A stretch of 64,000 nucleotides of DNA from positions 603,707-667,706 of the forward strand of contig BDDD01000023.1 in assembly GCA_001972305.1 (NCBI GenBank), in the 5' to 3' direction. Positions 4,355 through 60,640 of this stretch are shown piece by piece. Made by a program: the position numbers and the translations under genes. The DNA is from Cephalotus follicularis. Lineage: Eukaryota; Streptophyta; Magnoliopsida; Oxalidales; Cephalotaceae. The number at the start of each line of letters is the position of its first letter. Within the stretch, counting starts at the first letter, position 1. Under the pieces are notes generated by a model, which saw only the letters and a list, made by a program, of their open reading frames with translations, made no database searches and was not told where the DNA came from.

Positions 4355-4860
4355 TGGCGTCAACACCTAACTCTAGGCGTCAACGTGTACGCATCCTGTG
4401 CTCCAAAACAAAATCAGTCTCTTTGGGCATCAACGTATACCCCATACGTGTTAACGTATAAACAGTGCTCTTAGGCGTCAATGCATATCCTAGGTGTTGA
4501 CGTGTATCGTAGCCCACTCAGGTGCCAACACGCGCTCTAAGCATCAACACAAGCTCTAGGCGTCAACGTATAAAACAGTCCTTTAGGCATCAATGTTTTC
4601 TCTAGGCATCGACGTGCATGGCAACCCACTCAGGTGCCAACATTCTCTCTAGGCATCAACACCGACACTAGGCATCAACGTTAATAGCGCATAGTGTCCG
4701 GTAGACACTTAGGCGTCGACGTGTTCTTTTGGCATCGACGCCTTAAGGTAAGGAACCTTAGGTGCCAACGCGTCGTGCGTTCTCTTCTCCCATAGAACAA
4801 GTCATGGCGTCGACAAGCACCCATGGCGTCGACAAGCACCCATGGCGTCGACGTCTGTGA
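4355..4860. repeat. GTCRAC palindrome array in El-3 LTR, downstream of TATA
   Basis: About twenty short copies of GGCGTCAACG / GGCATCAACG / GGCGTCGACG occur at roughly 20-35 bp spacing, in an otherwise A+T-rich LTR. The copies are degenerate around a GTCGAC core; most now read GTCAAC. In the minus-strand sense they lie in the transcribed leader. Confidence 0.8.
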
Positions 4861-5312
4861 GACCATAACAACGTCTCTTTTGTTGCAAACCGTAACCATG
4901 TCCCACAACAATGGTTCTAAGCAAACAACACATGCATATTCAGTTCATAATCACCCAAAACAGCATACCAGGTTATCATTCAAGACAACCACAAGCCACC
5001 ATTCATGCGTTCATCAAACGACTGTTATTATAACTGAACTCAAAAACATAGTTATGTGATCCCTACCTCTGATTTCAAGTTCGGAATCGAAGTCCAACCC
5101 TTCAAGCTTTACCGAGCAGTAGCTTCCAAGCTCCCAGGTTTGGCGTAGAAGCTCCAAGTTCAAGCTCAGCTCCGCTCTTGGCTCGAGCCTCCAAGCTTCC
5201 AGGTCCAACAATGGAGAAACGGTCTCTCCTTCTCCCTTTTCCTCTTCTGTTTCTCACGATTTCTCTCCTTCTCTCTCTGTGCGGTAGAAGAAAGTGAAGG
5301 TGAGAGGCGTGT

Positions 5313-5320
5313 GTTTTTAT
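5313..5320 (-). promoter_or_regulatory. Weak TATA-like box of El-3 LTR
   Basis: The minus strand reads CATAAAAAC, followed by a purine-rich GAGAGAG leader. Position and context fit an LTR promoter, but the match is weak. Confidence 0.4.
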
Positions 5321-5529
5321 GGAGGAGCTCTCTCTCTCTCTCCCTCTTCCTGAATTAATGGCACCTAGCACCTTCCTCTCTCCTTCTTCTCTCTGGCGAC
5401 ATGACAACCATCAGTCACCTCCATCTCTCTTTCTATCAATGCAGAGCATGGGGAAGAGTTAAAGTGTCTTTCCCATGCCCTTCACACGTCTTATGTCAGT
5501 GTCTTGTCTTACTCCACCGACATACATTG

Positions 5530-5715
5530 GCTTCAACGTCCACGATACGTGTCGACGCGTTGACTCCTTCCTTTGGCGCTAACAGGCTCCATGAACCGTG
5601 TTAATGCCTACCTTCTTATTCTCCCAATCGGTGGCGTTGACGCCTTAAGGCATGGAGCCTTAAACGTCACATTGTCCCTTGGCATCGACGCTGTATCTTG
5701 GCATTGACGTGCATG
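5530..5715. repeat. GTCGAC palindrome array in El-3 U3
   Basis: Copies include TTCAACGTC, GTCGACGCGTTGAC, GGCGTTGACGCC, GCATCGACGC and GCATTGACGT. In the minus-strand sense they lie about 210-395 bp upstream of the TATA-like box at 5313-5320. Confidence 0.75.
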
Positions 5716-5852
5716 CACCCCTTTTCCCTTCATTTCTCCAACTCAACCATTTTTCCTTAACACCTTTTTATTGAAATTTAATACAACAAGTTGAAAATCC
5801 ATAATTCTCATTAATTCATCATGGAACTACAAAGGAATTTACAATAATACAT

Positions 5853-6862
5853 TTAATGGAAATTCCGGGCATACTCTCCTCGCATGTTGTCCATTTTAAT
5901 CTTGAGTTTCTTCATCTCAGCTAAAATAGAAAAATCTAAGCTGTTGTTAGCTTGTTGTTGTGGTGCAGAGGTAGGTCTAACCCTTTGTGCCTCACCTTGC
6001 TCCCTTCACCTTCAACTCTTCTTTTTCTCCTTCCACGTTCCATAGGTAGCCAACTAGTGCATTTACCACTCTCATACACTCTCTTCCTTCACAATCTCTT
6101 CAACGAAGAAGCATTGTAAATGTCACCCACATCTAACCTAGATGCAACCTCATTTACAACTATAATTCCAAATTGGGAAATAATCTCAGTGATCACCATC
6201 CCGTATGGAAATGCACCTTCAACCTTAGAGGTGGCTCTAAGCATGTTTTTCATGATTAAGTGGGGAAGGTTCAAAGCTTTACCAGTCACCACATGCCACA
6301 TAATATACAAGTCTTGGTAACTCATTTTTTCATGCCCATCGGAGGTAGGTAGAATATGAGTGGCAGTGATGTGGTGGAGCAGCCTATGCTCAGTACCCAG
6401 GATGTTGGTAGGTTTTTCCATGCCTCCAAAGACATTCTCATTTGGGTAAAATACCCTTAAACAATCCTCTAACACCAATTCCTGATCTTCCGGCCATTTC
6501 TTAGTTTCAAAAAACCTAGAACCAGTAGCAAGAACACCTAGAATGTTACCTAACAATTTATCATCAAAATTAATCACTGTCCTATTGACCTTAGTCTTGA
6601 TTTCTACAGAATCACAATCATCACTAACCTTTGTCATATTGCTATAAAATTCTTTTACTAACTCAACATAATAAGGGGCATTGATGGTAAAATAATCTCT
6701 CCATCCTAAGGCAGTAAACCATTGCTCTAATTGAAAATTATCACCTGTAGTGAAGGAGAAGTCCACTACCCTTCCACATAGCACTTTTCTTGCTGTATAG
6801 CTATCCTTGTACTTTGACCCAGATGGTGTTTTGCCTCCATGTGATGAGTGCTTCTTCGGCAT
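5853..6862 (-). pseudogene. El-4: 'putative plant transposon protein'-like ORF, decayed
   Basis: An ATG at 6862 opens 257 codons (MPKKHSSHGGKTPSGSK...) to a stop at 6089. A shifted frame continues to about 5853 and ends MDNMRGEYARNFH, a charged coiled-coil-like tail. The pattern W(F)xALGWRDYF, then APYYVELVKEFYSNM, then DKLLGNILGV resembles the family Pfam calls Transposase_32 / putative plant transposon protein, which is common in plant repeats and has no proven biochemical role. I recognise this by pattern only. No signal peptide or membrane segment is seen. It lies between two GTCGAC-type arrays, in the same orientation as the El-3 and El-5 coding parts. It may be the product of a non-autonomous LTR element whose LTRs I cannot delimit, or extra cargo of El-5. 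Confidence 0.5.
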
Positions 6863-6973
6863 GGTTGATGGTTTCGATTTTCATGGTTAAAACAGAGATT
6901 TTTGGTTTTGAAATCGATTTTGCAGAGAGAGAATAGAAAGAGGGAAAATAGGGGTTTGACACCAAAAGGAATG

Positions 6974-7290
6974 TGTGTCAACGAAAATGCTCAAAACAAA
7001 ATATCTGGTGTTTAGGCATCGACGTCTAACATACGCGTTGATGTTAATCGTGCACATTCTTTGTACAGGGGATAATAACGTTAACACCATTGTTGACGTG
7101 AATCCATAACGTTAACGCTAATCTATAGCGTTGACGCTAAAATCATAGAAGGGGTATATATATGTTAACGCTTATAAAAGCGTTGACGCGAAAACACAGA
7201 AATGAAACCATTTTCGTGAACGCTTAAAAAACAAAAGGTTGTATATACGTTAACGTGTATATTAACGTTAACGTTAATATATAGCGTTGA
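6974..7290. repeat. GTCGAC-type array upstream of the El-4 ORF
   Basis: About ten copies such as GCATCGACGTC, GCGTTGATG, AACGTTAACGCT, AGCGTTGACGCT and GCGTTGACGCG occur. In the minus-strand sense the array is about 110-430 bp upstream of the El-4 start codon. Some copies have GTTAAC in place of GTCGAC. Confidence 0.7.
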
Positions 7291-7566
7291 CGTGAAAACG
7301 TTTAAAACATGAGAACTTTGATTTTTCAAAACATTTTCAAAAACTCTTTCATTCAAAAACTTTGTCACTTTAAAACATTGAGAAATATGGCATATTCAAA
7401 ATCAGCAAACAAGATAATGCATACATAATCATTCATTGCATAATCAAACAATTCAATCAACAATCATGTAACATTTTAACAATCAAAACAATAAACACTT
7501 ACAATATGTGTGCTTGGATCATCTTTTTGTCCAATCTTCTTCAAGCACACCTACAAAACAAGGAAC
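7291..7566. other. A+T-rich spacer, nothing recognised
   Basis: This is simple A+T-rich sequence with several near-identical 'AATCAAACAATTCAATCAACAATCA' style words. It has no credible ORF. It is probably the 3' non-coding part of El-5, since the El-5 frame runs into it. Confidence 0.4.
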
Positions 7567-9148
7567 TCATCTTTTTAGTACCCAAAAGGTTTTGGGTCCT
7601 TTTGCATTAGTAGGAAAAGTTCCTTCCGGAACCCATATCCTTTTAACCTTTGTATTTGTTCTTCTAAACCAACAAGTTGTAGAAACATGTCCAAACTTTC
7701 CACAATAATTGCAATTAACCATATTCTTCTTTCTATCCAACAATTTATTAAAATGTTGTACCTTGTTCATTTCATCAAAGCCTAAACCGGCTTTGTCAAA
7801 TACACAACGTTGCATTCCTAGCAACCTATCCAGTTTATTACTACTATCAGAAAATTTTGAAAATGTCTTTTTCAAAGCATCAATTTCAATCTTTAGTTCT
7901 AAATTCTCCTTTTCTAAGGCAGAATTCTTTTCAACTAAGCATTCATCATTTTTTATTTCCAAAATATGATTTTTCATTTCAACATTTTCTTTAGCTCTAT
8001 CCTTACTTATTTTCTTTAACAATTGATGCTCTCAATTAAGATCATCCAATACGTCTATCAATTCATTACATTCATTGTGAAGATCATTATAACTAAGGGA
8101 TGAAAAACATACCTCATTTTCGTCTTCCATTGCCATAAAAACAATGTTGGCAATTTCCTCGTTTTCGTCCTCGTCCGAACTTGAATCATCGCTATCGCTC
8201 CATGTTGGGATCATAGCTTTCTTTTTGTCCCTTTTCTTCTTTAATTTAGGACAATCTGGTCTTATCTGACCAGGTTTGTTACATTCATATCGAATCACTT
8301 CTTTTTCATCTTTGTCACTTTTACTTGAATCTCCTTTTGACTGAAACGTTTTTAATTGCTTATTTGAAAAATTCTTTTTTGTCAAGTTGGATTCTTCTAA
8401 TCCTCTTTGTAACTAAAGCCATTTCATTCTCATTGCTTTCTTCATGTTTTGAACCTTTCAAGGCAATCGTCTTTTTCTTTGGCTCATTCCTTGCTTGGTC
8501 GCTCATTCGAAGCTCATGTGTCATCAAGGATCCTAGCAAGTCTTCCAATGGTAGAGTAGACAAATCGTTCGCCTCCTCTATAGCAGTGACTTTTGCTTCC
8601 CATGACTTCGGAAGGCACCTAAGAATCTTGCTCACAAGTTCATGGTTAGTGTAAACTTTTCCAAGACCTTTCAAAGCATTGATAATATCATTGAAACATG
8701 CTTACATACTAGAGATGTTTTGATTCTCAAGCATAGTGAATAGTTCATAATCATGCACTAATCAATTTATTTTGGTATGTTTTACCAAGTTGGTTCCTTC
8801 GTAGGTAACCATTAGCCTATCCCACATTTCCTTTGCAGAATCAAGGGATGAAACACGGTTGAATTCACTAGAACTCAAGGCACAAAATATAACATGTTTT
8901 GCCTTAGCATTCAACTGAAACAATTTATAGTCATGATCATTAAACTCATTATTCATTTTAATAATCCTTTGACCATCAAATATTTTAGTGGGAATTTTAG
9001 GACCATTTGTAATAATGTTCCATAGTTGATAATCCAACGATTGAATAAAAATGGTCATACGAGTTTTCCAATAACTATAATTGTTTCCATCAAAGCTAGG
9101 GCGTTTGCTGATAGATTGGCTCACATTATCATTGAAAAAGGTTTCCAT
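7567..9148 (-). pseudogene. gag: El-5 copia gag with two zinc knuckles, broken
   Basis: An ATG at 9148 starts METFFNDNVSQS about 40 bp inside the primer-binding site. The first 128 codons carry the copia gag pattern YWKTRMTIFIQSLDYQLW. A stop near 8762 and a frame change near 8380 split the rest. The next parts give LVSKILRCLPKSWEAKVTAI, a basic then acidic stretch, and a first knuckle YECNKPGQIRPDCP. That knuckle has Gln where the conserved His should be. A lysine/glutamate-rich coiled coil (8022-7700) and a second knuckle CNYCGKFGHVSTTC follow. The gene is not translatable end to end. Confidence 0.8.
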
Positions 9149-9188
9149 AGGATCAAACTAATTTCAATTAAGATTAACAATTAGAACC

Positions 9189-9201
9189 GCTCTGATACCA
9201 A
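9189..9201 (-). other. El-5 primer-binding site
   Basis: The minus strand reads TTGGTATCAGAGC, an exact initiator tRNA-Met type site next to the LTR edge. Confidence 0.85.
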
Positions 9202-9706
9202 GTTTAGGTCCACAAAAAGGATCCAAGAGGAGGGTGAATTGGTTATGCAAAAAATAACCACCCTTTTAAAGATTGAAAACAAGAATGATAATATCAATCA
9301 AAACACACAAGGCAATAAAATAATTTGCAAATAAAGTAAAGAGTGAGAGAAGAGATATGCAAACTATTTTATAGTGGTTCAGCAAACCGTACCTACGTTC
9401 ACTCTCCCAAGCCGCACTTGAGGTTCCACTAGAATGTAATCCCCCGATCACAAACAGCGATTCTGGATTTTTACAAGATGAATCCAAACTTGAATTTTTG
9501 TGAGCTAAATTCTAACTCGAATTTTCAAAGCTAAATCCTAACTTTTGAGTAAGGTACTGACGACCTTGGGTTACACAAATAAAAGGTTGTGTGTTTGTGT
9601 TTTCTTTCACTTCTAAAAGGTTGTATATGAAAATGATATTCAGAAAACAATAACAAAGTATGTGACAAGAATAAAAGCTCTTAAGAACACTTGTAAGTTT
9701 TGCTTC

Positions 9707-9844: not shown

Positions 9845-10296
9845 TGTTGACGTGTACACATGGCATTGACGTCTATCTCCTTATGCGTTAACTCCTTTGG
9901 CTTTCTGCGTTGATACTCCAAGCTTTTGTTCATCTTCAGTTCTATTTACGTTGACTCACATCCATGGCATTGACGCTAATATCATTTGAGTTGACTCCAT
10001 AATATCTTCGCGTTAACGTCCAAACTCACTGTCCCAAATGTGCACCATTTGTGTTGATGTTTTGATATGACGTTGATGCCTATAGACAAGGTGTTGACTC
10101 CACCTGTTTTCTGCGTTGACGTTCAAGTCTCCATCACCTTTTGACATTGACGTCTTCCTCAAGGCGTTGACGTAAATAATAAGTTTCCCAGCATGTTGAC
10201 GAGGATAAAGATGGCGTTGATGAGAATCATCTTGCTAAACTTAGAACATGTACTAATTCCCAGCACATTGACGCCTAGAGCATAGTCGTTGATGCC
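9845..10296. repeat. GTTGAC/GTCGAC-type array in El-5 U3
   Basis: About twenty copies, such as GGTGTTGACGTG, GGCATTGACGTC, TGCGTTAACTCC, GCGTTGACGTTC, GGCGTTGACG and ACATTGACGCC, occur at about 20-30 bp spacing. Nearly all have decayed from GTCGAC to GTTGAC. They lie just upstream of the LTR TATA box in the minus-strand sense. Confidence 0.8.
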
Positions 10297-12279: not shown

Positions 12280-13310
12280 CGCATGCACAAGATGCACGCT
12301 TGGGATATAGGTCATGGCGTGCTATGGCGCTCTACTTGGCATGCTCAGAGGCATGAAATAGAGTGCCTGGGCTTATTGCTCGTCATGCTCAGTGCATGGT
12401 GTGCTAGGACGCACTGCCTTGCATGCTCGGGTGCACACTTGCATGCTCGGATGCGTTGCTCGGGCGCATGCATGGCATGTTTGGACGTACAGCTGAGATG
12501 CATGCATGGAGTGCTCACTGCTCAGACTCATGCATGCTCACACTTGTGCACCATCTAGACTTGGACGCATGCATAGTCGGACGCTTGCTCATGCTGTGGA
12601 GAGCTCGGGCTCATGCTTGGCATGCACAAGATGCACGCTCAGGATGCATGGCGATAGGGAGATCTGGCGCATGTCATTGCATGCTCTGGATGCATGGTTG
12701 TGGAGAGCTCGGGTGTATATCATCACATGCTCGGGACTCATGGCGATAGGGAGCTCTGGGGCATTGCTTGGTATGCTCGGGGTGCATGCTCGGAGCGCCT
12801 GTGTTGGAGAGCTTAGCGCAAGGCATTGCATGTGTGGGACGCATGCTAGTGGAGAGCTCGGGTATGGCGCTTCACGCTTACGATGTGGAGAGCTCGGCCA
12901 TGACATTGCATGCTTGGGACGCATGCATGTGGAGAGCTTGGCCATGACACTGCATGCTCACGATGTGGAGAGCTCAGCCATGATGTTGCATGCTCGGGAT
13001 GCATGCACATGGATAGCTCGGACGTATGCAGGACAGTGGTCGGGTGCCTTACATGCTCTGGATGGTCACAAAAGAGAGCTCGGAGGCATTGAATGCTTAG
13101 GATGCATGAAGTGGAAAGATCGGTGCTATGCTATGCTCGGGCATGACATGCACACACCAGACACACGGTCGGGATGCATGCTTGGGGAGCTCGGGTGGAT
13201 GACATTGCATGCTCGGGCGCATGCTTGGAGAGCTAGGGTGTATGTGATTGCAAGCTCGGTGCATGGCATAGTGCGGCATGCTTGGCATGGCGTCATACAG
13301 ATGGGATACA
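12280..13310. repeat. GCATGC / GAGCTC palindrome array in El-7 LTR
   Basis: About 1 kb is dominated by TGCATGCTCGG, GACGCATGC and GTGGAGAGCTCGG words. It is G+C-richer than its surroundings and open in several frames only because of its periodicity. A truncated second copy starts near 24590. In the minus-strand sense it is downstream of the LTR TATA box. It parallels the GTCGAC arrays of other families but uses different palindromes. Confidence 0.8.
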
Positions 13311-14400: not shown

Positions 14401-15791
14401 ATACGATATCAATACAATCCATATCCACTTAGCACTATACTAGGAATCTAGAAGTTAACTAGGTATATATATATATTGTCCATACAGTAACGCCCCCGAT
14501 CCGAGTTCACTTTATGATCAAAGCGAACTACGAAGATTCGGTGCGTTACGTGGGAGTGAAGCCTTTGATCCTTTAACAATCTTAGTAATTGCTAATATTT
14601 ATCCAATTCATCATAATCTCATATATAACTTACAACTTGCAACACTAAACTTTTCAATGTCATATTTTTATTATAAACCATAACGATCACAGTCAACGTA
14701 TTTATAAAACATTATCAGGATACATTTCACAGCGGAAAAGATTAACTTATTACATCAAAAGCAGTTTATACAAAACATTAATGTATAACATAATTCCTTT
14801 TCAAAAGCTTCCTTTATGAACTCCCTCTAAAGCTCGAAATCTCTTCGTTCATCCATTCCCTGGAAAATTTTTATTTAAAAACAAAACATTGAAAGGAATG
14901 AGCTTAAATAGCCCAGTAAAGGTTTCAAAATAAACATTTCATCACATTCATTCTTTTCTATTCATATCTCATGAAACAGAGCATTTTATTTCTTTTTCTG
15001 ATCATATCTCATGAATCATAATATTTCATAAATAACTGAGGAGTTGTATAAACTTAAATAACCCAACTGAAACCTTTTGCTTCACCGGGGCATTGTGCAC
15101 TCCCCGATTACTATCCTTACATCACATGCATGTCCGTGAGCACTATCCGCTCATTTAATCCTTCTCGAATTGATCCCCCTTGGATCGCAATCCAAGAGTT
15201 GTTCATCTCAGTTTATTATCTTTTCCTAAAATCATTTCTTAATACTTTGAGTGATTAGCTCAAGGTATTCATAAAAAAGTAAATTCGTACAACATTTGTA
15301 AAACTGAATTTACATAGATCAACATAAAAACAAAAAAAAATTTAGTGGATATTTCAACGATTTCAGAATGGTTAAAAAAATCATAATTTCATTGAGAATA
15401 TCAGCAGAACATGAGCAAGAATTTTAAACATAGAATTTCATCAAGAAATTGACAGAAATTTGAAATACATAAAACGTAATAATTTGTTGCATAATTTCTA
15501 GAAATAACAGAAAATATTTTTAAAAAATGAGTAAGCATAAAGTAGTTTAGCAAAAAGTGAATAGGGATTCTTACTTTTCTTTAATCTCCTTCTCTCCTTT
15601 AGTACACTGAAGTAATTTCTACACTAAAATCTAAGCAAAATTCTCATTCTTTTCTCTTATCTCCTATTCTCTCTTTTTCTTTCTCTCCTTGTTTCTCTCT
15701 TTCTTTCTCTCATTCTTTCTCTCTTTCTTTTCTCTCTCAGTAATTTTTTTATTGGTAGAATTACTATTGCTCTCAGACGTTAAATTTACCC

Positions 15792-15802
15792 GTATTTATA
15801 GG
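15792..15802 (-). promoter_or_regulatory. TATA box, El-8 3' LTR
   Basis: The minus strand reads CTATAAATACG. The equivalent in the other LTR is CTATAAATA at 22191-22199. The array starts about 220 bp upstream of both. Confidence 0.7.
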
Positions 15803-16024
15803 GAAGTTACCTACAGCTTCCTTACCCTCGTCAGTCCTCACATTACGTCACCCACGTTATGCAGCCCACATTGTTAAATTCCCTTCCTCCAGATAAACGA
15901 AAATTGTCCTCTTTTAAGTTAAAATAATGATAATCAGTTATAATATCTCAATTTCTTCATCCGGTTGATGACAAATGTCCATAATTATTATAATTAAATC
16001 ACAAAACGACAGAAAAAAGAGATA

Positions 16025-16345
16025 AGCGCCAACACTTTCAAGCTTTGTTCTTTAAAAAGCGTCGATGCTTTAACCGCAAAGTGCTGCCACTTTCCCAATA
16101 AGCGTCACCAGTTGAGCGCTTTTAACAAAGTAAATAAGTCTTAAACCGTCGAAGGAAAAGGAAATAAGCGGTGTTGGTTTAAACACATAAGCGTCGCCGC
16201 TTTCCCACTACGCTATAACAAACCGTCGACGCTTAAGCTAATAAGTTTGGTATGTTTTGGGGTACGAAATTAGTCGACGCTTTGTGTATAGTGAAGACTA
16301 ACCGTCGACACTTTAAAACTAGATAGTCGACGCTTTCAACACTCC
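16025..16345. repeat. GTCGAC palindrome array, El-8 3' LTR U3
   Basis: About eleven copies occur, among them AAGCGTCGATGCTTTAAC, AAGCGTCGCCGCTTT, AAACCGTCGACGCTTAAGC, TAGTCGACGCTTTG, ACCGTCGACACTTT and TAGTCGACGCTTTC. The best copies are near-perfect palindromes with arms AAGC/GCTT. Confidence 0.9.
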
Positions 16346-16438
16346 AAAACTCAAAACATACACACAACACACCATACGACACTTAGAACAACCATATTTC
16401 CATAAACAATTACTTCAACAAAATTTCCGGTCATTACA

Positions 16439-16455
16439 TTCTACCCTCCTTACAA
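16439..16455 (-). other. El-8 polypurine tract
   Basis: The minus strand reads GTAAGGAGGGTAGAA just before the 3' LTR start TGTAATGACC. This is the expected priming site for plus-strand DNA synthesis. Confidence 0.65.
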
Positions 16456-20894: not shown

Positions 20895-20910
20895 TCTCTG
20901 ATTCCAAAAC
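20895..20910 (-). other. El-8 primer-binding site
   Basis: The minus strand reads TTGGAATCAGAGAG after the LTR end, a two-base variant of the initiator tRNA-Met type. Confidence 0.7.
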
Positions 20911-22836
20911 TGTAACGCCCCCGATCCGAGTGAACTTTATGCTCAAAGTGAACTACGAAGATTCGGTGTGTTATGTGGGGGTGAAGCCTTTGATCCTTTA
21001 ACAATCTTACTAATTGCTAATATTTATCCAATTCATCATAATCTCATTTATAACTTACAACTTGCAACACTAAACTTTTCAATGTCATACTTTTATTATA
21101 AACCATAACGATCACAGTCAACGTATTTATAAAACATTATCAGGATACATTTCACAACGGAAAACATTAACTTATTACATCAAAAGCAGTTCATACAAAA
21201 CATTAATGTATACCATAATTCCTTTTCAAAAGCTTCATTTACGAACTCCCTCTAAAGCTCGAAATCTCTTCGTTCATCCATTCCCTGGAAAATTTTTATT
21301 TAAAAACAAAACATTGAAAGGAATGAGCTTAAATAGCCCAGTAAGGGTTTCAAAATAAACATTTCACCACATTCATTCTTTTCTGTTCATATCTCATGAA
21401 ACATAACATTTTATTTCTTTTTCTGATCATATCTCATGAATCAGAACATTTCATAAATAACTGAGGAGTTGTATAAACTTAAATAACCCAACTGAAACCT
21501 TTTGCTTCACCGGGGCATTGTGCACTCCCCGATTACTATCGTTACATCACATGCATGTCGGTGAGCACTCTCCGCTCATTTAATCCTTCTCGGATTGATC
21601 CCCCTTGGATCGCAATCCAAGAGTTGTTCATCTTAGTTTATGATCTTTTCGTAAAATCATTTCTTAATGCTTTGAGTGATCAGCTCAAGGTATTCGTAAA
21701 AAAATTAATTCGTACAACATTTGTAAAACTGAATTTACGTAGAGCAACATAAAAACAATAAAATTATAGTGGATTTTTCAACGATATCAGAATGATAAAA
21801 AAAATCATTTTCATTGAAAATATCAGCAGAACATGAGCAATAATTTTAAACATAGAATGTCATCAAGAAATTGGCAGAAATTCGAAATACATAAAACGTA
21901 ATAATCTGTTGCATAATTTCTAGAAATAACAGAAAATATTTTTAAAAAATGAGTAAGCATAAAATACTTTAGCAAAAAGTGACTAGGGATCCTTACTTTG
22001 CTTTAATCTCCTTCTCTCCTTTTCTACACTGAAGTAATTTCTACACTAAAATCTCAGCAAAATTCTCCTTCTTTTCTTTTCTCTCCTCTTCTCTCTTTTT
22101 CTGTCTCTCCTTGTTTCTCTCTTTCTTTTCTCTCTCAGTAATTTTTTTGTTGGCAGAATTACTATTGCTCTCAGACGTTACATTTACCTGTATTTATAGG
22201 GAAGTTACCTGCAGCTTCCTTACCCTCGTCAGTCGTCACATTACATCTCCCACGTTACGCCTCCCACGTTGTTAAATTCCGTTCCTCCAGATAAACGACA
22301 ATTGTCCTCTTTTAAGTTAAAATAATGATAATTAGTTATAATATATCAATTCCTTCATCCGGTTGATGACAAGTGTCCATAATTATTATAATTAATTCAC
22401 AAAAGGACTGAAAAACGAGATAAGTGTCGGCGCTTTCAAGCTTTATTCTTTAAAGAGCGTCAACGCTTTAACCTCAAAGCGCTGCCACTTTCCCAGTGAG
22501 CGTCACCGGTTTAGCGCTTTTAACAAAGGAAAAAAGGCTTAAACCATCGAAGGAAAAGTAAATAAGCGTTGTTGGTTTAAACGCATAAGCATCGCCGCTT
22601 TCCCACAACACTATAACAAACCGTCGATGCTTAAGCTAATAAGTTTGGTGTGTTTTGGGCTACGAAATTAGTCGATGCTTTGTGTACACTGAAGACTAAC
22701 CGTCGACAGTTTAAAACTAGATAGTCGACACTTTCAACGCGATAGAACTCAAAACATACACACAACACACCATACGACACTTAGAACAACCATATTTCCA
22801 TAAGCAGTTACTTCAACAAAATTTCCGGTCATTACA
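20911..22836 (-). repeat. El-8 5' LTR
   Basis: 1,926 bp, TGTAACGCCCCCGATCCG to TTCCGGTCATTACA, homologous to 14486-16438. It carries the TATA box at 22191-22199 and an array at 22418-22745. Confidence 0.9.
22418..22745. repeat. GTCGAC palindrome array, El-8 5' LTR U3
   Basis: Same layout as 16025-16345, with different decayed positions: AGCGTCAACGCTTT, CCGTCGATGCTTAAGC, TAGTCGATGCTTTG, TAGTCGACACTTTC. Comparing the pair shows CpG to TpG/CpA changes within copies. Confidence 0.9.
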
Positions 22837-23271
22837 TCCATACCTACATATTATATATAGTTAACATCTAGTGGTTGACTAAATATATGTACTGTCCCAT
22901 ACCAACATATATAAGTAGTTAACCACTTCCCCTTTTTAATCAGTCATTCATTCACTTAGCCGCCCAATCAACCATTGAATCAGTCACTCGGTCATATGTT
23001 CAATCATTCACTTGGTCAATCCATTATGCAACTGATCATTCACTCAAATACTCACTATCCAGTCCCCGAGGGTTCTAGCTTAGGAACCACTAGACCACTC
23101 ACTCAATCAATCGATCGGTCGGTCAATCATCATATGATGTAAAATCCACTATGTCAAACACTTATGCCTTCTATCCATTCGATTGATCATTCGTTTATTC
23201 CAATCCATACCGTCAATCACTTATCCATTTCGATTCATTCTATCGGTCACTTATCCATTTTAGACGTCACA
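22837..23271 (-). repeat. El-7 left LTR, second part (U3 end)
   Basis: Resumes the El-7 LTR after El-8 with the repeated TCCATAC and continues to ACGTCACA at 23271. It contains degenerate ATTCA/CAATC words. The outer edge is inferred from the TG...CA rule, the plausible G-rich tract just outside it, and the closeness of the next primer-binding site. Confidence 0.55.
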
Positions 23272-27371: not shown

Positions 27372-28267
27372 CTAAGGCAATGCCAGACGATAAGCCACTG
27401 GTCCAATCCTTTGCAAAACCTTAAAGGGACCTATGTACCTTGGGCTAAGCTTCCCATGCTTGCCAAAATGAACAATCCCCGTGTAAGGTGATACCCTCAG
27501 GAACACCTTGTCACCTACAGAGAATTGCAAGTCCTTTCGGCGCTTGTCTGCGTAGCTCTTCTGCCTACTCTGGGCTGCTCGTAAACGGTTTCGGATCACC
27601 TTAACCTTCTCTATTGCGTCTTGTACCAATCTATTCCTAGAAACTGGCGTTCTCCCACGTTGTTACAACACAAAGGAGTTCAGGAAAGTCTACCGTACAA
27701 CGCCTCATAAGGAGCCATACCAATGATCGCTTGGTAGCTGTTGTTGTAGGAAAACTCGATCAAAGTCAAATGGCCATCCCAACTTCCTCGGAAGTCCATG
27801 ACACAGGCTCTCAACATGTTCTCAAGAATCTGGATAGCACGCTTAGACTGCCCATCAGTCTGAGGATGGTACGCCATAATGAGTCACAACTCTGTACCCA
27901 ACGTCCTCTTAAAGCTCCGCCAGAATCTTGATGTGAACCTTAGGTCTCTATCCGAAACTATGCTGCTGGGGATCCCATGTAACCTGACCACACCATCCAC
28001 ATACAACCGAGCTAACTTGTACAAACCAAAGTCCTTCCCTATAGGTATGAAGTGAGCAGACTTGGTCAAACGATCTACTATCACCCAGATAGCATCATGC
28101 ATACTCCCTGCCCTAGGAAAACCAGTGACAAAGTCCATAGATATGTTGTCCCATTTCCACACTGGAATCGGTTGAAGAAGACCTGAAGGCTTATGTCGCT
28201 CTGCCTTCACCTGCTGGCATGTCAAGCACCTTGCCACAAACCTGGCAATCTCACGCTTCATGCCTGT
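27372..28267 (-). pseudogene. pol: El-9 integrase, main part, split by El-10
   Basis: Three open blocks: 28261-27884 ([36 protein letters not shown]), 27877-27680 ([26 protein letters not shown]) and 27629-27372 (AAQSRQKSYADKR, GKLSPRYIGPF). The first and second catalytic Asp are visible. The third position reads GQSKRAIQ, where Glu is expected (GQSERTIQ in El-14), so the DDE triad is broken by Glu to Lys. Frameshifts separate the blocks. The N-terminal zinc-binding part continues at 29791 on the far side of El-10. Confidence 0.85.
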
Positions 28268-28639
28268 TCACGTAAAAAGAATGTTTTAAAATTTATAGCC
28301 GCAAGTGCACGGATCATGCAGTAACGGGTCAAACGCAAGGAAACGTAAACTAGTTGTAATTTATCCAACCTAGGCAAAGTATACCAATTTATGAGATAAA
28401 CTATTGAAAACTACTCCTAATTATGCAAAAATAATAAAATAATTGAAAACAGGAAATAAATAAATAAAATAAAATAACGGACTAAAATAAAATAATTGAA
28501 AAGAACACGTGCAAATTAAAACTAATTAAAACAATAAATAAAACTCTAGAAAATATATAATTAAAAAGCGGTTTAGGGTATAGAAACTCACCGTAGATTG
28601 TATTGAACAATTTCCATGTAATTGAATGATCATACCTTG

Positions 28640-28805
28640 GTAATCAACGCAGCTAGGTCTATACGGAGTGTGGCATTGCTGACAAGACGTATGAGTAGTC
28701 ATGCTAGGTCTATAAGAAGTGTGGATTTTAATCAGACAAGACGTATGAGTAGTCATGCTAGGTCTATACGTAGTGTGTTCGTAGCGACAAATCGTATGAG
28801 TAGAC
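28640..28805. repeat. About 60-bp tandem repeat in El-10
   Basis: Three diverged copies of a unit containing GACAAGACGTATGAGTAG, then TCATGCTAGGTCTATA and AGTGTG. Seen directly. Confidence 0.8.
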
Positions 28806-29185: not shown

Positions 29186-29577
29186 GACGTCGACTTCTTC
29201 TTGAATGGCGTCGACTTCTTTGTGTAAAAATCGAGACTTTGCTGAGATGCGAGTGAAAGGCGTCGACTTCTTTTTGAAAGACGTCGACTTCTTATGTGTC
29301 AAAAGTTACAGGACAATTTTGTTGAAAGACATCGATGTGATAGTTGAAAGACGTCGATCTTCATGAAAGGCGTCGACTTCTTTGTCAAAAGACGTCGACT
29401 TCTTTTTCATAGCTCCTTGAAGATTGTTGCATTTTCCAGAAAAGACATCGACTCTCAAGGAAAGACATCGACTTCTTTTGTTGTACCCAGAAAAGACATT
29501 GATGTTGAATGAAAAGAGTCGACTGCTTTGATGTAAACCCAGAAAAGACGTCGACCTTTAAGGAAAGGCGTCGACGT
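29186..29577. repeat. GTCGAC array with AAGA arms in El-10
   Basis: About fourteen copies of AAAGACGTCGACTTCTTT and AAAGGCGTCGACTTCTTT, with decayed forms (GACATCGACT, GACATTGATG, GAGTCGACTGC). The arms differ from those in El-8, El-11 and El-14, but the core is the same. Confidence 0.9.
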
Positions 29578-38847: not shown

Positions 38848-39206
38848 CAAAGCATCGGCGTTTCACCTCCAAGCCTCGCCGCTTACGGGTTTGTCCAAGG
38901 TTCTTCATCTAATATGCGGGGCAAAACATTGACGCTTCACTTCCAAGCGTCGCCACTTACAAGCTTCATCCAGGTCAAACGAAATTCTTGACTTTGAAGC
39001 GTCGAAGCTTACATTTAGAGTGTCGTCGGTTTCATCCAAGCGTTGCCGCTTTCGTCGAAGCGTCGTCGGTTGGAGAAGTTTTTCCAAGATAAAAACTCAC
39101 TGTTTTTAACCGGCATTGGACGGGGTCCAAGCGTCAAAATTTTAATGTTCAAAGCGTCGATGCTTTAGCAAACCGTCGGCGCTTAACACAGAACTGTTGA
39201 CACTTT
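38848..39206. repeat. GTCGAC-type array, El-11 left LTR U3
   Basis: About fifteen copies: AAGCATCGGCG, AAGCGTCGCCACTTAC, GAAGCGTCGAAGCTTAC, AAGCGTTGCCGCTTTC, AAAGCGTCGATGCTTTAG, AAACCGTCGGCGCTTAAC. The array sits 250-610 bp upstream of the TATA box. Confidence 0.9.
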
Positions 39207-42963: not shown

Positions 42964-43255
42964 GCAAAGCGCCGACGGTCTTGGAATCAAAGCGTCAGCG
43001 GTTTGGTCCCAGGCGTCAATGCCTAAAGAAGCTTGTATATGCTGATTAAATCAGTAACTTGCAAAATTAGTTGAAGAACTCAAAGCGCCGACGCTTAGGA
43101 GTAAAGCGTTAGCGCTTTATGCCAAAGAGTCGACACCAAGATTAAAGCGCCAGCGGATGAAACGAGAAAATTCAAATTCAACTCATAACGGTAACCTAAG
43201 CGCCGACGCTTTAGGCAACACCGTCGATGCTTTGGACAACTGGAACAATGTCAGA
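42964..43255. repeat. GTCGAC-type array, El-13 5' LTR U3
   Basis: About ten copies: AAAGCGCCGACGGTC, AAAGCGTCAGCGG, AGGCGTCAATGCCT, AAAGCGCCGACGCTTAGG, AAAGCGTTAGCGCTTT, AAGCGCCGACGCTTTAGG, ACCGTCGATGCTTTGG. It lies 90-385 bp upstream of the TATA box. The arms are the same as in the gypsy elements El-8, El-11 and El-14. Confidence 0.9.
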
Positions 43256-45669: not shown

Positions 45670-46264
45670 ACCTTGTTTTTGTAGGTGTACTTGGAAGACA
45701 AAATGTTCAAGTACAAAAGTTTTGGTGAGAAAGCTTTTGTTGAGGGGGAGGTATCGTTTTATGTTAGACAATAAAATAATGCTCTCATTAAATTAATCCT
45801 TAATTTTCAATTGGTATCTTTCAAACTCTTAAATTGAATTTTTTTTAATGATATGATATTGATATTTTAACTTTCAATGGATTTCATTTCAATTGGTATT
45901 CTTTTATTCTCAGTTGGTATCCCTTTAAAATTGTTTAATTGGTATCAAATTTTTGACATAATCTTTTTTATGCTAACAAAAAGGGGGAGAATGCTTTATG
46001 CTTAAGGAAAAATTGATGCTTTATGAAAATGTGATATTAATGAAGAATGTGTTAAGGGGGAGTTTATGGTAAAGATAAGATTATTTGCATAAATCCTTAT
46101 TTTGAAAAATGAAAATTAGATATCATATTAAGGGGGAGAGTATCTAAATTTTTAAGTTGGTATCTAAAGAAAGTCTTATCTTTCAATTGTACTTTTTCTT
46201 TGAAATGTTATAGTTTCTTTTCCTTAATGAAGCAAATTTTTGAAATCATCAAAAAGGGGGAGAT
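45670..46264 (+). other. El-13 3' non-coding region with five polypurine tracts
   Basis: Tracts GAGGGGGAGG (45743), AAAAGGGGGAGA (45980), AAGGGGGAG (46055), AAGGGGGAGAG (46130) and AAAAAGGGGGAGA (46251, next to the LTR). Repeated TTTCAATTGGTATC words lie between. Extra polypurine tracts are a known trait of SIRE-type elements. Confidence 0.8.
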
Positions 46265-46639
46265 TGTTGACTTTTAGTCTCAATCCTAAGTTTTAATGAT
46301 TACAAATTTGCATTTAACTTTGTTGCTTTCTGTGCAAGATAAACAAAATTAAGAAGTGCAGAAACAGGGCAAAGCGCCGACGGTCTTGGGCAAAGCGTCA
46401 GCGGTTTGGTCCTAGGCGTCAACGCCTAAAGAAGCTTGTATCTGCTGATTAAATCAGTGACTTGCAAAATTAGTTGAAGAACTCAAAGCGGCGACGTTTA
46501 GGAGTAAAGCGTCAGCGCTTTATGCCAAAGAGTCGACACCAAGATTAAAGCGCCAGCGGACGAAACGAGAAACTTCAAATTCAACTCATAACGGTAACCT
46601 AAGCGCCGACGCTTTAGGCAACACCGTCAACGCTTTGGA
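46265..46639 (+). repeat. El-13 3' LTR, first part
   Basis: Repeats 42860-43235 with an array at 46370-46637. Interrupted within CGCTTTGGA by El-14 (TTGGA duplicated). Confidence 0.9.
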
Positions 46640-46774: not shown

Positions 46775-46915
46775 GCGCCGACGCTCTCTTTAGAACCGCT
46801 GACGCTTTGGTTGCTGGGTGGCACGTCGATGCCTAAACGTCTGACTTCGACGCGTTTTGTATTTAAGTGCTTAACAGTCGATGCTTTAAGTAAACAGTCG
46901 ACGATTTGTTCGGCT
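46775..46915. repeat. Distal GTCGAC-type array, El-14 5' LTR
   Basis: Copies AAAGCGCCGACGCTC, ACCGCTGACGCTTTGG, CACGTCGATGCCT, CTTCGACGCG, ACAGTCGATGCTTTAAG and ACAGTCGACGATTTG. Counterpart at 53456-53595. Confidence 0.85.
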
Positions 46916-47639: not shown

Positions 47640-47782
47640 GCGCAAACCGTCGACGCTTTCGTTCCAAGCGTCGCCGCTTTGTGTTGTTTTATGCCTTAGT
47701 CTGTCGACTCTTGGCTCGACGCTTTGTCCCTTTTTGCTATTAAACCGTCGACGCCTAGGAGTAAACGGTCGATGCTTTATGA
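47640..47782. repeat. Proximal GTCGAC-type array, El-14 5' LTR
   Basis: Copies AAACCGTCGACGCTTTCG, AAGCGTCGCCGCTTTG, CTGTCGACTC, GGCTCGACGCTTTG, AACCGTCGACGCCTAGG and AACGGTCGATGCTTTATG, 60-205 bp upstream of the TATA box. Counterpart at 54350-54487. Confidence 0.9.
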
Positions 47783-53323: not shown

Positions 53324-55859
53324 TGTAATATCCCGTGTTCTATGTTGACATGTTTATATGTTTTTTGTTTGGCATCATATCCTTTTTGATTTATGCTATC
53401 GTTTGTGGACTTTTTGATTTCTGCTTGAATTATGTTATTTTTGTTTTATGGGCACAAAGCGCCGACGCTCTCTTTAGAACCGCCGACGCTTTGGTTGCTG
53501 GGTGGCACGTCGACGCCTAAACGTCTGACTTCGATGCGTTTTGTATTTAAGTGCTTAACAGTAGACGCTTTAAGTAAACAGTCGATGCTTTGTTCGGCTT
53601 TCCATATCAGTTTGGACGGTGACAGTGTTTTTGGAAGGTTGGATTCTTTCTTTTTCTGGCTATCCGATTTTCCTTAAGTGTTAGAAGCGTTTTGGTTAGT
53701 ATGGTAATGTCCTAATATACCGATTTTGACAATTAAAATTTCGCATTTCGCATTTAACCAGACAAAATTCTTTTAAAAGCATAAACTCTTTTCTGCACTT
53801 TTTACAAACAAACAGCAACTTTGAATACGATTTTCTACACTGATTTCGACGTTTTCTGGAGGTAATTTCTAAACGAAAATTGTAGTTCATACTATGTAGT
53901 TTCTGTATCATCTTTTAATTCGTGTTAAAGTCGACTATAACATGATCTAGAGCATGATTTTGGAAGCTTGTTAAAACTAAATTCTGCTGTTGTTTTTATA
54001 TGTTCATTCATGAGTTTTATGCATAACTAGTGATATTGATTCTTAAAAACAAAGAAATCATACTATTGACGAAGGTAGCTACATGTATATGTCACTGGTT
54101 TTAGGATTTAAACAAATGAAATTCGAAATTTTGTTATGGCTGCATAAACTATTTATATGGAAGAAAATTAGGTTTCAAAATGGATTTCACTCTCTATATG
54201 AAATCATAATGTTATTCTGGCGTTTTTGAAGTAATATAACATGTCACTGAACTTACATGTTGTTAGTTAAGCTTTGTGTTTATCAAAAAAATCAGATTAT
54301 TCATGAAATTGAAACTGTTTTCGGCAATTGTTATTCTGTGTCTGGCGCAAACCGTCGACGCTTTCGTTCCGAGCATCGCCACTTTGTGTTGTTTTATGCC
54401 TTAGTTTGTCGACTCTTGGCTCGACGTTTTGTCCCTTTTTGCTATTAAACAGTCGACGCCTAGGAGTAAACGGTCGACGCTTTATGACAGTTTTGATGTT
54501 TTGATTCCTTTTATGTTATGTGATATTTGGACTCGTATGTTTAGGTCTTTATATCGTTCCTGGTGAAGTTTAGGACATTCTAGAATATTTTTGTCCGATA
54601 TTCGTATTTTTTTAGATTGTTCGATCAGCTAAGGTGCGGATTCTTCGTTCTTTGGTACTCCTTCGATTAAACTTTCATTAATTGATGATTTTGTATGTTT
54701 TATCGAATGCATTTATGTTCCTGGTTTTATTAGAAATAAAACTCGTGTTTTGATACGGATGTTCTCATTTTGATAATAATCTTACGGAAATGGATTTCAA
54801 CATTGTTACTTCGGATATTGATTATTAATAAGCATATTTTCTGTTATCGAAAGCATGATAATTGTTTTAGACATGGCTTCCACTTTCGGAAGTATGTTAA
54901 ACTTCAGATACAGTTAAGATTTTGTTTTCAGATAAGATCAGAAATTGTTTAGAAATTGTTAAAATTGTTTTAGAATAAAACAAAGTTTTAGCATAATAAC
55001 ATACAGAGAAAAACCCTACCTATGAGGTATCATAGGCATGTTCTTTGGCACGGAGGACATGACACCTACCGTGGCGGTGTGAACGGTCTACGGCGTCTCT
55101 TTTAAATATGTATCCTGAGGGTAGGATATGGATCCTTTTGAGGCGTATGAGTATACTCGAGTTATTGACAGAATTCAGTATTCAGTATTGGGATTGATTG
55201 TGTAGTGCCATACACGACTTTTCCGTCAGAGCATGTGGGCCTCGCGAACCCCTTGCACCTATATATGTATGTATGTCAGAAATTCTCTGTTATGGAATTA
55301 TGAATCAGATAATGTTTTGAATTATGATGTTATGTTTTCGCAAAGTTATGATGGTTTTTTTTTTTTACGAATGTTCGCTTTTAAATATTATGTTTTACTT
55401 GTCAAATATATTTATTATGTTGCTTTACTGAATTTAAAGTTCAAATTATTTTGTTTACCGTTTACTATTTTAATTCCTTATCCGTACTGAGCTTTGCTCA
55501 GCCGCGTTTTTGTTTCTATGCGGCAGGTTTTCAGGAGCATGGGGGAAACAAGTGATGAGAGTTATCCATTTGTCAGAGGACTATCTAGGAGTTGGTCCTT
55601 GTATTTTCCAGTAGGGTCAGATTAGTTTTCGTTAAAAACAGTTTCAGATTTTGGTTTTGCTCTAGTTTATCTGGATATCGGATTATGATTCGTTTTTATT
55701 TATGATTGCTTAAAATTTCAGAGTTTGTTGAAATCAGCTGTTATAAGATATGCTTTTAGACCACCACATCCGTTTCGTATCAGTCTTTTGTTTAGATTTC
55801 CGTTATGTTTCAGTTTGGTATTATGACCTGTCAGGGCTCCCATCATCGGGGGTGTTACA
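53324..55859 (+). repeat. El-14 3' LTR (full length)
   Basis: 2,536 bp. The extra part (about 54748-55310) includes CTATGAGGTATCATAGGCATG and GAGCATGTGGGCC blocks that match the El-11 LTR in reverse. It is therefore original sequence, and the 5' LTR lost it. Arrays are at 53456-53595 and 54350-54487. Confidence 0.92.
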
Positions 55860-56500: not shown

Positions 56501-58048
56501 AAAGTCATACTCAATTTATAAAACCGGTGATATTAAACTTCAGTAAAAGATTTTATAAAAATTGAACAAACATCCGATAACAAAATCCGTACATTTTCAC
56601 AAAGTAAAACAGAATTTATGAAAAGGTCGACAATTTCTAAAACTGATTTTTCGTATATATGTTATGATTTTCAGAGAAAACATAAAACATAAAACTTAAA
56701 GTAGACGTTTCAAAGACTCTAGAAAAGTAAAGTTCACAATTTTTTGTTGAGAAACGAAGCTGCAGTGAATTTTTAAAGTCACTGATTTCATATGAAAATA
56801 GAACATGAATAGAAATTTTGAACATACATTTTCGTAAGGAATTGGAAAGAAATTTGAGATACATGATGCATAACAGTTAAAGAGGACATCTTAAGCTTTT
56901 CAGAACATACAACCATTTAATTTTTCATCAATAAATGAAAAAATTATGATTTAAAGAAGCTGCTGCATAATCCCGGAATAAAACAGAAGAAAACAGTACC
57001 CGAGCAATAATTTAAAACATGGATTCTCATCAAGAAATCGATAGAATTTTGAAACGTACTAAGCAGAACAGCGAAAGAGGACATCCTAACGTTTCCAAAA
57101 CATCCAACCATTAAAATTTCATCAAGAAACAAGCAAGATATGAATCAAACAATCTGTTGCCAATTATCAGAAGAAAACAAAGCATGGATGGTTCAAATCC
57201 TTACCTTGCTTTAATCTCCTTCTCTCCCTCTCTTAGCCGAAATCTCCTCTCCAAACTCAGCAAAAACCAACCTCTTTTCATCTGAAATTACACATATATT
57301 TATACAAAGAGAGAACTTCGAGAGCAAGCATTACATAGTGAGTCACCATGACATCACCCATGTGAGTTGTCCATGTCTGTCACCTCCTAATTGCCCATGT
57401 GATGGAATTCTCCACCACAACTTGATGCCACATGTCCTTTTCCATCAAAATATCTTAACTCCTTACTTTCTTGATTGACACATGTCTCTCAATCCATTTA
57501 ATTCATTTGTAACGAGACAAAACGTTAACTTCTACAACTAATCTGCAGGTCAAAGCGTCGGCGTTTCACCTCCAAGCGTCGTCGCTTACAAGTTTGTCCA
57601 AGGTTCTTCATCTGATATGCGAGGCAAAGCATTGATGGTTCAATTCCAAGCGTCGCCGCTTACGAGCTTCCTCCCGGTCAAACAAAATGCTTAACTTTGA
57701 AGCGTTGCTACTTACGAGCTTCATCCAGGTCAAACGAAATGCTTGACTTCGAAGCGTCGAAGCTTACATTTAGAGCATCGTCGGTTGCATCCAAGCGTTG
57801 CTGCTTTCATCGAAGCGTCGTCGGTTGGAGAAGTTTGGCCAAGATAAAAACTCACTGCTTTTAACCGGCGTTGGATGGGGTCCAAGCGTCGAATGTTTAA
57901 TGTTCAAAGCGTCGACACTTTAGCAAACCGTCGACACTTAACACAGAACTGTCGATACTTTAAACTTTGTCGTCTAAAAAAAGACAAACTACTTTAAAAA
58001 AAGATTAAAAAGCCCGAAATTATGCACACAGACAAACGGGGTATTACA
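56501..58048 (-). repeat. El-11 right LTR, second part
   Basis: Starts with the duplicated AAAGT and matches 37797-39294. TATA at 57294-57304, GTCGAC-type array at 57548-57965 (for example AAGCGTCGTCGCTTAC, AAAGCGTCGACACTTTAG). Ends GGGGTATTACA. Confidence 0.88.
57548..57965. repeat. GTCGAC-type array, El-11 right LTR U3
   Basis: About eighteen copies. One extra unit, GAAGCGTTGCTACTTACGAGC with its CTTCATCCAGGTCAAACGAA spacer, is duplicated relative to the left LTR, so the arrays also grow by whole units. Confidence 0.88.
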
Positions 58049-59233: not shown

Positions 59234-59404
59234 TGTAATAACCGCAAATTCAATCCGTGTACATTGTACTTTTGATGAATAAAATGTGCACTTTCTTGAA
59301 TTTAATGTCTAATTGTTATATGAATTGTGGTTGTGAATTCAAATGAGGAAATAAACTTGAGCCACCAAAATCAGGCAAAACAGCAGACTGTTACTGGGTA
59401 ACAT

Positions 59405-59517
59405 TCGACTGCCTGGTTTAGGAAGGAACAATCGACTGTCATAGGGGAACAGTCAACTGTTTGATACGTGAGTGGATAGTCGACTGCCTGTTAAAGATAG
59501 TCGAATGGAACGGCACA
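59405..59517. repeat. GTCGAC array with ACA/TGT arms, El-15 U3
   Basis: Copies CATTCGACTGCC, CAATCGACTGTC, ACAGTCAACTGTTT, TAGTCGACTGCC and TAGTCGAATGG, 245-355 bp upstream of the TATA box. Confidence 0.85.
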
Positions 59518-60530: not shown

Positions 60531-60640
60531 AGTCGACTGTTCTTCATGGCAGTCGACTACTCAACCTATTTAGTCGACTGTTAAGAGAAAATAGTCGACT
60601 ACTCAATCCAAACCGCCGACTGTTCTTCAAAGCAGTCTAC
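60531..60640. repeat. Second GTCGAC array, El-15 LTR, downstream of TATA
   Basis: Copies GCAGTCGACTGTTC, GCAGTCGACTACTC, TAGTCGACTGTTAAG, TAGTCGACTACTC, CCGCCGACTGTTC and GCAGTCTACTGTCC. El-3, of the same lineage, also has arrays on both sides of its TATA, but with different arms. Confidence 0.85.

Follow-up and report, generated by a model that had tools for sequence, protein, structure and literature searches.

GTCGAC-core dyad arrays with 21-bp spacing in LTRs of copia and gypsy retrotransposons

Regulatory repeats in LTRs are usually studied one family at a time. The DNA analyzed here, a 64-kb stretch of nested LTR retrotransposons (hereafter the window), raises a question that crosses families: why do LTRs of both copia and gypsy elements carry dense arrays of one palindrome, and what might read them? 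We found that the two superfamilies share a word, its dialects, and a 21-bp grammar, a spacing rule that was absent from the preliminary description of this DNA.

The genome is very probably that of the pitcher plant Cephalotus follicularis: among named proteins, those that best match a gag-protease frame (87% identity) and a PF20167 frame come from Cephalotus. We searched the assembly of 1.577 Gb that contains the window and counted sites in the window, in a genomic sample of 20 stretches of 10 kb (200 kb) from the same genome, picked nonrandomly from spaced contig numbers, and in a larger set of 286 kb made up of the window and 23 loci (L001 to L024 without L015). L015, in which positions 1-9376 are a satellite array with a period of approximately 163 bp, was excluded from the analyses of matrix clusters, spacing, variant spectrum, 6-mer pairing, and compartment counts. 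Second copies of LTR pairs were excluded from the spacing analysis and the variant spectrum. The motif matrices were trained on some of the arrays that they later scored (clusters, spacing, LTR positions, and PF20167 promoters); the 200-kb abundance, exact-site pairs, variant spectrum, 6-mer pairing, and compartment counts use exact words and are free of this overlap.

Distribution of GTCGAC arrays

Counts bear out the preliminary report of dense GTCGAC-core palindrome arrays. GTCGAC occurs 43 times in the window versus 5.9 expected from dinucleotides, the strongest over-representation among the 64 six-base palindromes, and the densest 300 bp hold nine sites with at most one mismatch, more than in any of 60 simulated windows (mean maximum 4.6, highest 7). 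The 200-kb sample contains 122 copies versus 17.5 expected (7.0-fold), which ranks GTCGAC third by fold excess among all 6-mers, behind two GA-repeat words. Across the window and the 23 loci, we counted 58 exact GTCGAC in 37.0 kb of paired LTRs (15.7 per 10 kb) and three in 58.6 kb of retroelement coding DNA (0.5 per 10 kb); the remaining 190.3 kb, which may contain LTRs with a partner outside the stretch, hold 112. The control words CAGCTG, GAGCTC, and CTCGAG showed no LTR excess over coding DNA in the same set. Matrix hits in the 286 kb numbered 393 versus 58 in a simulated copy, and clusters of at least three dyads numbered 43 versus one. A different palindrome, GCATGC, exceeds its expected count 3.3-fold in the window; together with GAGCTC, it abounds in tandem repeats at 12632-13259, outside the dyad arrays.

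Thirteen of the 15 intervals in the preliminary description were recovered as clusters of at least three dyads. The other two, 6974-7290 and 9845-10296, were not recovered in this way and are built mainly of GTTGAC, GTCAAC, and GTTAAC forms. Two arrays lie beyond that list, at 4718-4850 and 60535-60638. The arrays of the window and two associated features are as follows.

4718..4850, array in the El-3 region, 4 dyads; known here without a mapped LTR pair
5554..5687, El-3 array, 4 dyads
6092..6880, minus strand, PF20167 (Transposase_32) open frame, downstream of the El-4 array
6974..7290, minus strand, El-4 array of GTTAAC/GTCAAC/GTCGAT dyads in the promoter region of the PF20167 gene
9845..10296, minus strand, El-5 array, composed mostly of GTTGAC forms; a copia gag (8390-9157, minus) lies downstream of it, and TATAAAT is at 9715
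16031..16329, El-8 3' LTR array, 9 dyads, in an LTR at approximately 14484-16445 of a minus-strand gypsy element; the focal interval of the preliminary description
22429..22727, El-8 5' LTR array, 9 dyads; LTR at approximately 20909-22844
29189..29575, El-10 array with 9 exact GTCGAC; the surrounding 28265-29783 is a probable solo LTR
38857..39199, El-11 LTR array, 12 dyads of dialect AAAGCGTCGACGCTTT; gypsy, minus strand
42974..43226, El-13 5' LTR array, 9 dyads; Sirevirus-type copia, LTR 42860-43905
45743..46262, plus strand, five polypurine octamers AGGGGGAG of El-13, at 45743, 45982, 46055, 46131, and 46255
46379..46629, El-13 3' LTR array, 8 dyads; the El-14 insertion splits this LTR
46780..46900, El-14 5' LTR first array, 4 dyads; chromodomain gypsy, LTR 46640-48587
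47652..47771, El-14 5' LTR second array, 4 dyads
53464..53584, El-14 3' LTR first array, 5 dyads
54357..54476, El-14 3' LTR second array, 4 dyads
57560..57954, array in the second El-11 LTR copy, 13 dyads; LTR split by the El-13 insertion
59386..59503, El-15 first array, 6 dyads of dialect CAGTCGACTG; known here without a mapped LTR pair
60535..60638, El-15 second array, 6 dyads with gaps of 20-21 bp

The El-10 array lies in a stretch of 1519 bp with TG..CA ends and a 5-bp target duplication (ATGCC), and the matrices recovered it only in part (3 dyads at 29521-29573). The first El-15 array is upstream of a plus-strand gypsy gag-protease frame (62092-63807). Interval 6974-7290 (El-4), which had been counted among the LTR arrays, instead lies directly upstream of the minus-strand PF20167 frame; it adjoins this frame and matches the layout of other PF20167 promoters, and is therefore not an LTR array.

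In element orientation, arrays start approximately 100-200 bp into the LTR in El-8, El-11, El-13, El-14, L001, and L008 and approximately 1130 bp into it in L003; a second dyad group is present further into the LTR in El-14 and L008. The preliminary description held that arrays lie upstream of the TATA box. This order was found in El-5, El-8, El-10, El-11, El-13, and El-15, where a TATAWAW string, common as such strings are in AT-rich DNA, follows approximately 90-290 bp downstream of the array (in El-10, TATATAA at 29097, minus strand), and in El-3, where the distance is approximately 450 bp. It was not found in L001, whose LTR has no TATAWAW, in L003, where such strings occur solely ahead of the array in the 2271 bp scanned, or for the second array of the El-14 5' LTR, in which the single TATAWAW (position 763) comes before that array. 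The El-14 3' LTR has a TATAWAW at 1937, within a stretch absent from the 5' LTR.

In the El-14 3' LTR, 557 bp at 54754-55310 are without a match in the 5' LTR and partly resemble the opposite strand of the El-11 LTR; they may therefore have been lost from the 5' LTR. The El-14 target duplication TTGGA (46635-46639 and 55860-55864) is directly beside a dyad of the El-13 array. The El-11 region also holds a TRIM-like insertion (39373-40256) flanked by CCCCA, with two 407-bp direct repeats that are 94.6% identical, lie 70 bp apart, start with TGTGACACC, and end with TTACA. The first repeat is followed by the string TGGTATCAGAG, which we take to be a tRNA-Met-type primer site.

Dyad symmetry, spacing, and variation

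The unit of the arrays is a dyad of 10-16 bp whose flanks covary between half-sites. Among 150 distinct sites, the first base outside the core complements the opposite flank in 69%, versus 41% with right flanks re-dealt (z 7.9), and complement covariation beyond column composition extends to the second and third positions (z 5.2 and 3.1). Seven control palindromes, counted without a permutation test, had 3-41% complementarity at the same three flank positions. Motif learning that started from GTCGAC without a symmetry constraint returned near-palindromic flanks in two of four array sets, as CAAAGCGTCGACGCTTTa in one (approximately 62 sites in 8.9 kb) and CAGTCGACTG in another (approximately 93 sites in 6.1 kb); neither of the two smaller sets (El-4/5; El-10 plus three loci) yielded a clean GTCGAC dyad. 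The dyad center is about as conserved as the flanks in the learned motifs. There are two main dialects, CAGTCGACTG, carried by L001 (copia-type) and L003 (gypsy), and AAAGCGTCGACGCTTT, carried by El-13 (copia) and by El-8, El-11, and El-14 (gypsy). Many dyads of the PF20167 promoters and El-4 are centered on GTTAAC or GTCAAC, and those of El-5 mostly on GTTGAC.

Neighboring dyads keep a preferred distance. After dropping second LTR copies and relatives, we retained 30 non-redundant clusters, 28 of which contain a gap of 19-23 bp; such gaps make up 107/157 of all non-redundant gaps, and 63 are exactly 21 bp. Exact words gave the following counts. In the 200-kb sample, 38 of the 140 exact GTCGAC pairs no more than 130 bp apart start 20-22 bp from each other. 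A core with at most one change occupies 118/288 slots at 20-22 bp from an exact site and 56/288 slots at 41-43 bp, compared to 3/288 at 14-16 bp, 12/288 at 26-28 bp, and 4/288 at 34-36 bp in control slots. When 2080 strand-collapsed 6-mers are ranked by pairing excess at 20-22 bp, two GA-repeat words come first and AGTCGA, CAGTCG, and GTCGAC next.

The spacers between neighboring dyads are largely unrelated, with little above chance alikeness: for pairs at exactly 21 bp, spacer identity is 0.34 between adjacent spacers (14 pairs), 0.37 within the same cluster (96 pairs), and 0.29 between different clusters (1857 pairs). Proteins that occupy neighboring sites on a single helix face would be expected to leave such a pattern of fixed spacing and mostly free spacers. 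For gaps other than 21 bp, helical phasing was unclear at 10.5 bp (R 0.218, p approximately 0.09), and the best of the 16 periods tried was 11.5-12 bp (p 0.025, uncorrected); we dropped helical phasing beyond 21 bp because it lacked significance at 10.5 bp.

Cores at lattice positions comprised 74 GTCGAC, 19 GCCGAC, 13 ATCGAC, 8 GTTGAC/GTCAAC, and one each of four others. Among the 44 one-substitution neighbors at 20-22 bp, 32 fit RYCGAC (the 19 GCCGAC and 13 ATCGAC) and eight have the central CpG-decay form; 40 of the 44 are transitions, as are all three tolerated variants. ATCGAC can be obtained by CpG decay in one dialect. Although CpG transitions are common in these LTRs, GCCGAC outnumbers the central CpG-decay form, a hint that the central CG is important in active lineages.

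For changes after insertion, we compared the LTR copies of seven elements using matrix-defined dyads and stratification, leaving out pairs X, Y, and L005; CpGs changed other than by transition are outside both CpG counts. Transitions affected 42/144 CpGs inside dyads versus 93/283 elsewhere (stratified odds ratio 1.07, p 0.85), and other bases were changed at 38/797 positions inside dyads versus 502/11486 outside. The LTR copies of these seven elements thus carry no mutational sign of lasting methylation protection at dyads. Dyads decay no slower after insertion, so any function would be confined to active copies; inserted copies seem to drift neutrally, and selection must act on the active lineage. 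A loose-motif count over ten LTR pairs (21/91 versus 176/472) had pointed to CpG protection, a candidate that we rejected when the difference vanished with matrix dyads and stratification.

Array carriers in two superfamilies and upstream of PF20167

The copia carrier El-13 has a copia gag (PF14223) with zf-CCHC at 44347-44973, and its next frame has a leucine-zipper match below the curated cutoff (25.8 versus 28.1 bits). One copia RT query and one integrase query gave no match in El-13; the copy seems to be pol-less, and its clade therefore cannot be read from RT or integrase. The El-13 LTR holds nine dyads at positions 114-366 of 1046 and TATATAT at 489, and the last AGGGGGAG octamer (46255) starts 10 bp before the 3' LTR (46265). 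In L001, two paired LTRs separated by 3.7 kb each carry dyad arrays, and an array at 5070-5132 is followed by PF20167 at 5205-6401 and by AGGGGGAG at 6748, 6779, and 6818. PF20167 thus occupies the envelope position of a Sirevirus-type element, in a frame of two pieces that each score under the Pfam cutoff, and from this position we infer that it is the published Sirevirus envelope-like gene. Searches within L001 found no gag or pol, so its Sirevirus label rests on the tracts and the layout.

PF20167 had 13073 first-look candidate places in the genome, of which 150 were scored; many of these 150 have stop-free open frames near 400 aa. We took upstream DNA from 20 of the 21 best places, the remaining one being at a contig end. 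At least three dyads are present in 17/20 upstream regions, most often 290-480 bp upstream of the domain. A TATA string 277-334 bp upstream of it is present in 19/20, and one comes no more than 40 bp after a dyad in 16 of the 17 dyad-bearing regions; an in-frame ATG lies 153-159 bp before the domain in 14/20. PF20167 genes have the clearest promoter layout among the array carriers; most of the 20 promoters are related to one another (each pair shares a median of 113.5 14-mers) and hence amount to few independent cases. The PF20167 protein has a lysine-rich start and a long predicted C-terminal helix. A DNA-binding fold was set aside as a candidate, the AlphaFold2 model of protein P0125 (alignment of 68 sequences) being too poor for fold comparison (mean pLDDT 55, pTM 0.29).

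Among gypsy carriers, El-14 encodes SH3 and chromodomain matches and has its arrays within paired LTRs, and the paired LTRs of El-8, L003, and L008 likewise contain arrays and enclose gypsy RT, RNase H, SH3, or chromodomain matches; El-11 has a gypsy gag. The El-11 and El-14 LTRs share parts at 73-77% identity, and the array-bearing gypsy families may, judging by such likeness, be related among themselves, so strong independence is that of copia against gypsy. Arrays are not universal, since no matrix dyad was found in the 5' LTR of the paired-LTR element Y. No relatives of the El-14 integrase were confirmed in viral contigs.

The preliminary description proposed a common force acting on copia and gypsy LTRs, with array exchange as one possible form. 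The first idea is supported, since the dyad, its two main dialects, and the 21-bp spacing all occur in both superfamilies. For exchange, we kept dyads fixed and shuffled spacer letters 200 times in six copia x gypsy pairs in both orientations, uncorrected. The alignments were reached by 2, 15, 22, 28, 58, 67, 100, 114, 160, 160, 177, and 200 of 200 shuffles. Exchange is thus unsupported: 11 of the 12 tests were each reached by at least 15 shuffles, and the exception, El-13 x El-14b in the plus orientation at 2/200, is a single case out of 12. The procedure is able to detect kinship, as L003 x L010 shared spacers at 0/200 shuffles in the plus orientation (the L010 array being of unassigned host element type); L010 and L019 share 47 14-mers. 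Copia and gypsy arrays have motif and spacing in common and little or no spacer sequence.

Possible readers of the arrays and known systems

Judged from sequence, it is fairly probable that the arrays are activating cis-regulatory sites for a protein that binds as a symmetric dimer, cooperatively at 21 bp, and that comes from one host transcription-factor family. The arrays, located in LTR U3 regions and in the internal PF20167 promoter, would be read as double-stranded DNA, with a sequence-specific protein binding each dyad as a symmetric dimer. Dimers on neighboring dyads, two helical turns (21 bp) apart, would lie on the same face and bind jointly, and the bound array would stimulate transcription at the promoter downstream of it. 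That unrelated elements have word and spacing in common makes one host transcription-factor family the most likely reader, and paralogues within that family would account for the dialects. An AP2/ERF factor of the DREB/CBF kind is a weak candidate, a lead rather than an identification, suggested because RYCGAC appears among listed CBF elements; DREB1D is one of the LTR-associated factors in a machine-learning survey of plant LTRs. Against this candidate, RYCGAC itself is no dimer site, the three tolerated variants are all transitions, and ATCGAC can result from CpG decay in one dialect. If true, a reader common to both superfamilies would be relevant to a large share of the mobile DNA in this genome, and the 21-bp two-dyad unit is a ready bait for finding it.

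Other readings assign the arrays to different agents. One element-encoded trans-factor, perhaps the PF20167 protein, might bind dyads two helical turns apart to activate or un-silence its own Sirevirus, with chromodomain gypsy elements having evolved the same strips; we regard this as rather improbable. We also think it unlikely that the arrays recruit an element- or host-derived factor that removes or blocks promoter methylation and that unrelated elements parasitize. VANDALs, which are DNA transposons, offer a precedent for such an anti-silencing target, since VANC acts in this way on VANDAL elements of Arabidopsis. The targets of VANC are short-motif arrays in noncoding TE DNA, with motifs that depend on the family (PMC5735166, PMC10398659), and VANC6 motifs also occur in the unrelated AT9TSD1 (PMC5735166). 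The arrays here are alike in being short-motif arrays in noncoding TE DNA whose motif varies by family and which unrelated TEs also carry, and the promoter of the PF20167 gene itself contains an array, which would be conceivable for a factor under autoregulation. However, dyad CpGs transition as often as others, and VANC targets are tandem repeats, in a paper whose main text does not contain the string "palindrom" (PMC5735166), whereas spacers here are mostly unrelated. The VANC motifs YAGTATTAY and AGTTGTCC/AGTTGTAC are also non-palindromic, unlike the dyads, and the factor is known for VANDAL but putative here. The comparison with VANC made in the preliminary description is fair as a functional analogy only.

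It is distinctly unlikely, in our judgment, that the palindromes serve as a silencing handle by folding in read-through RNA, feeding small RNAs, or binding a host repressor. Maize Sireviruses are reported to have a small-RNA excess on palindrome clusters with strong predicted structure (PMC10760457, citing Bousios 2016), and two of five arrays fold far better than shuffles (z -5.5 and -6.8), but the remaining three fold less clearly (z -0.9, -1.6, and -2.2). Conservation at the dyad center, the would-be loop, is about equal to that of the flanks; folding needs no fixed 21-bp spacing; and sites purely harmful to the element should disappear. Regular spacing, with spacers somewhat more alike within a cluster than between clusters, would also fit decayed, functionless tandem duplications of a 21-bp unit. 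Such minisatellite-like growth is disfavored and seems to us very unlikely, given that adjacent spacers are hardly alike while dyads are, that half-sites covary, and that copia and gypsy share dyad and spacing with little or no spacer kinship. Recombination between superfamilies, followed by divergence of the spacers past recognition, is highly improbable: elements do nest in each other's LTRs within the window, and El-13 x El-14b in the plus orientation was reached by just two shuffles, but in the remaining 11 copia x gypsy tests, 15-200 of 200 shuffles reached the observed alignment.

Palindromic arrays upstream of TATA are already known from Sireviruses (PMC2829016). The RM boxes described there (Bousios et al. 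2010, PMC2829016) are many, family-specific palindromes in the upper LTR half, upstream of TATA; RM copies recur upstream of the envelope-like gene, and multiple AGGGGGAG tracts stand before the 3' LTR (PMC2829016). Their core is CGG-CCG except in Tnd-1, the Vitis RM is CGGTCGACCG, and no common factor among the palindromes is reported in the RM account (PMC2829016), which calls RM Sirevirus-specific and missing from the classic Ty1/copia elements compared. The El-13 array is likewise in the upper LTR half before TATA, El-13 has a AGGGGGAG octamer 10 bp before the 3' LTR with further copies in the linker, and the L001 array is upstream of PF20167, with AGGGGGAG tracts after it. This Sirevirus likeness of the copia members, and with it the published TATA- and envelope-upstream palindromes, was overlooked in the preliminary description. 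Unlike RM, the core here is GTCGAC, with GCCGAC variants carrying half of CGG-CCG, and the arrays are also present in the chromodomain gypsy elements El-14, El-8, L003, and L008; the spacing is 21 bp, whereas no mention of spacing was found in the RM account (PMC2829016). Since they depart from both the RM core and the Sirevirus restriction, we do not file the arrays as Sirevirus RM members, although by analogy they look and probably work like RM. The published, unexplained Sirevirus palindromes thereby gain a testable rule. In the literature searched, we found no earlier account of a GTCGAC core with covarying dialects, of a 21-bp rule, or of gypsy members, and we regard these three features as new to that extent.

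A maize Sirevirus palindrome, CACCGGACNNNGTCCGGTG, is found in both Copia and Helitron elements, and palindromic arrays are cited as cis-regulatory regions in several TE families (PMC10760457). The arrays here are similar in that a single palindrome spans TE superfamilies; unlike CACCGGACNNNGTCCGGTG in Copia and Helitron, two LTR superfamilies share motif and spacing and little or no spacer sequence. Helitrons can capture DNA of other elements. Tnt1 and ONSEN have stress-type enhancer repeats in plant LTRs, one family and one known factor each, and the arrays resemble them as repeated, here putative, transcription-factor sites in U3.
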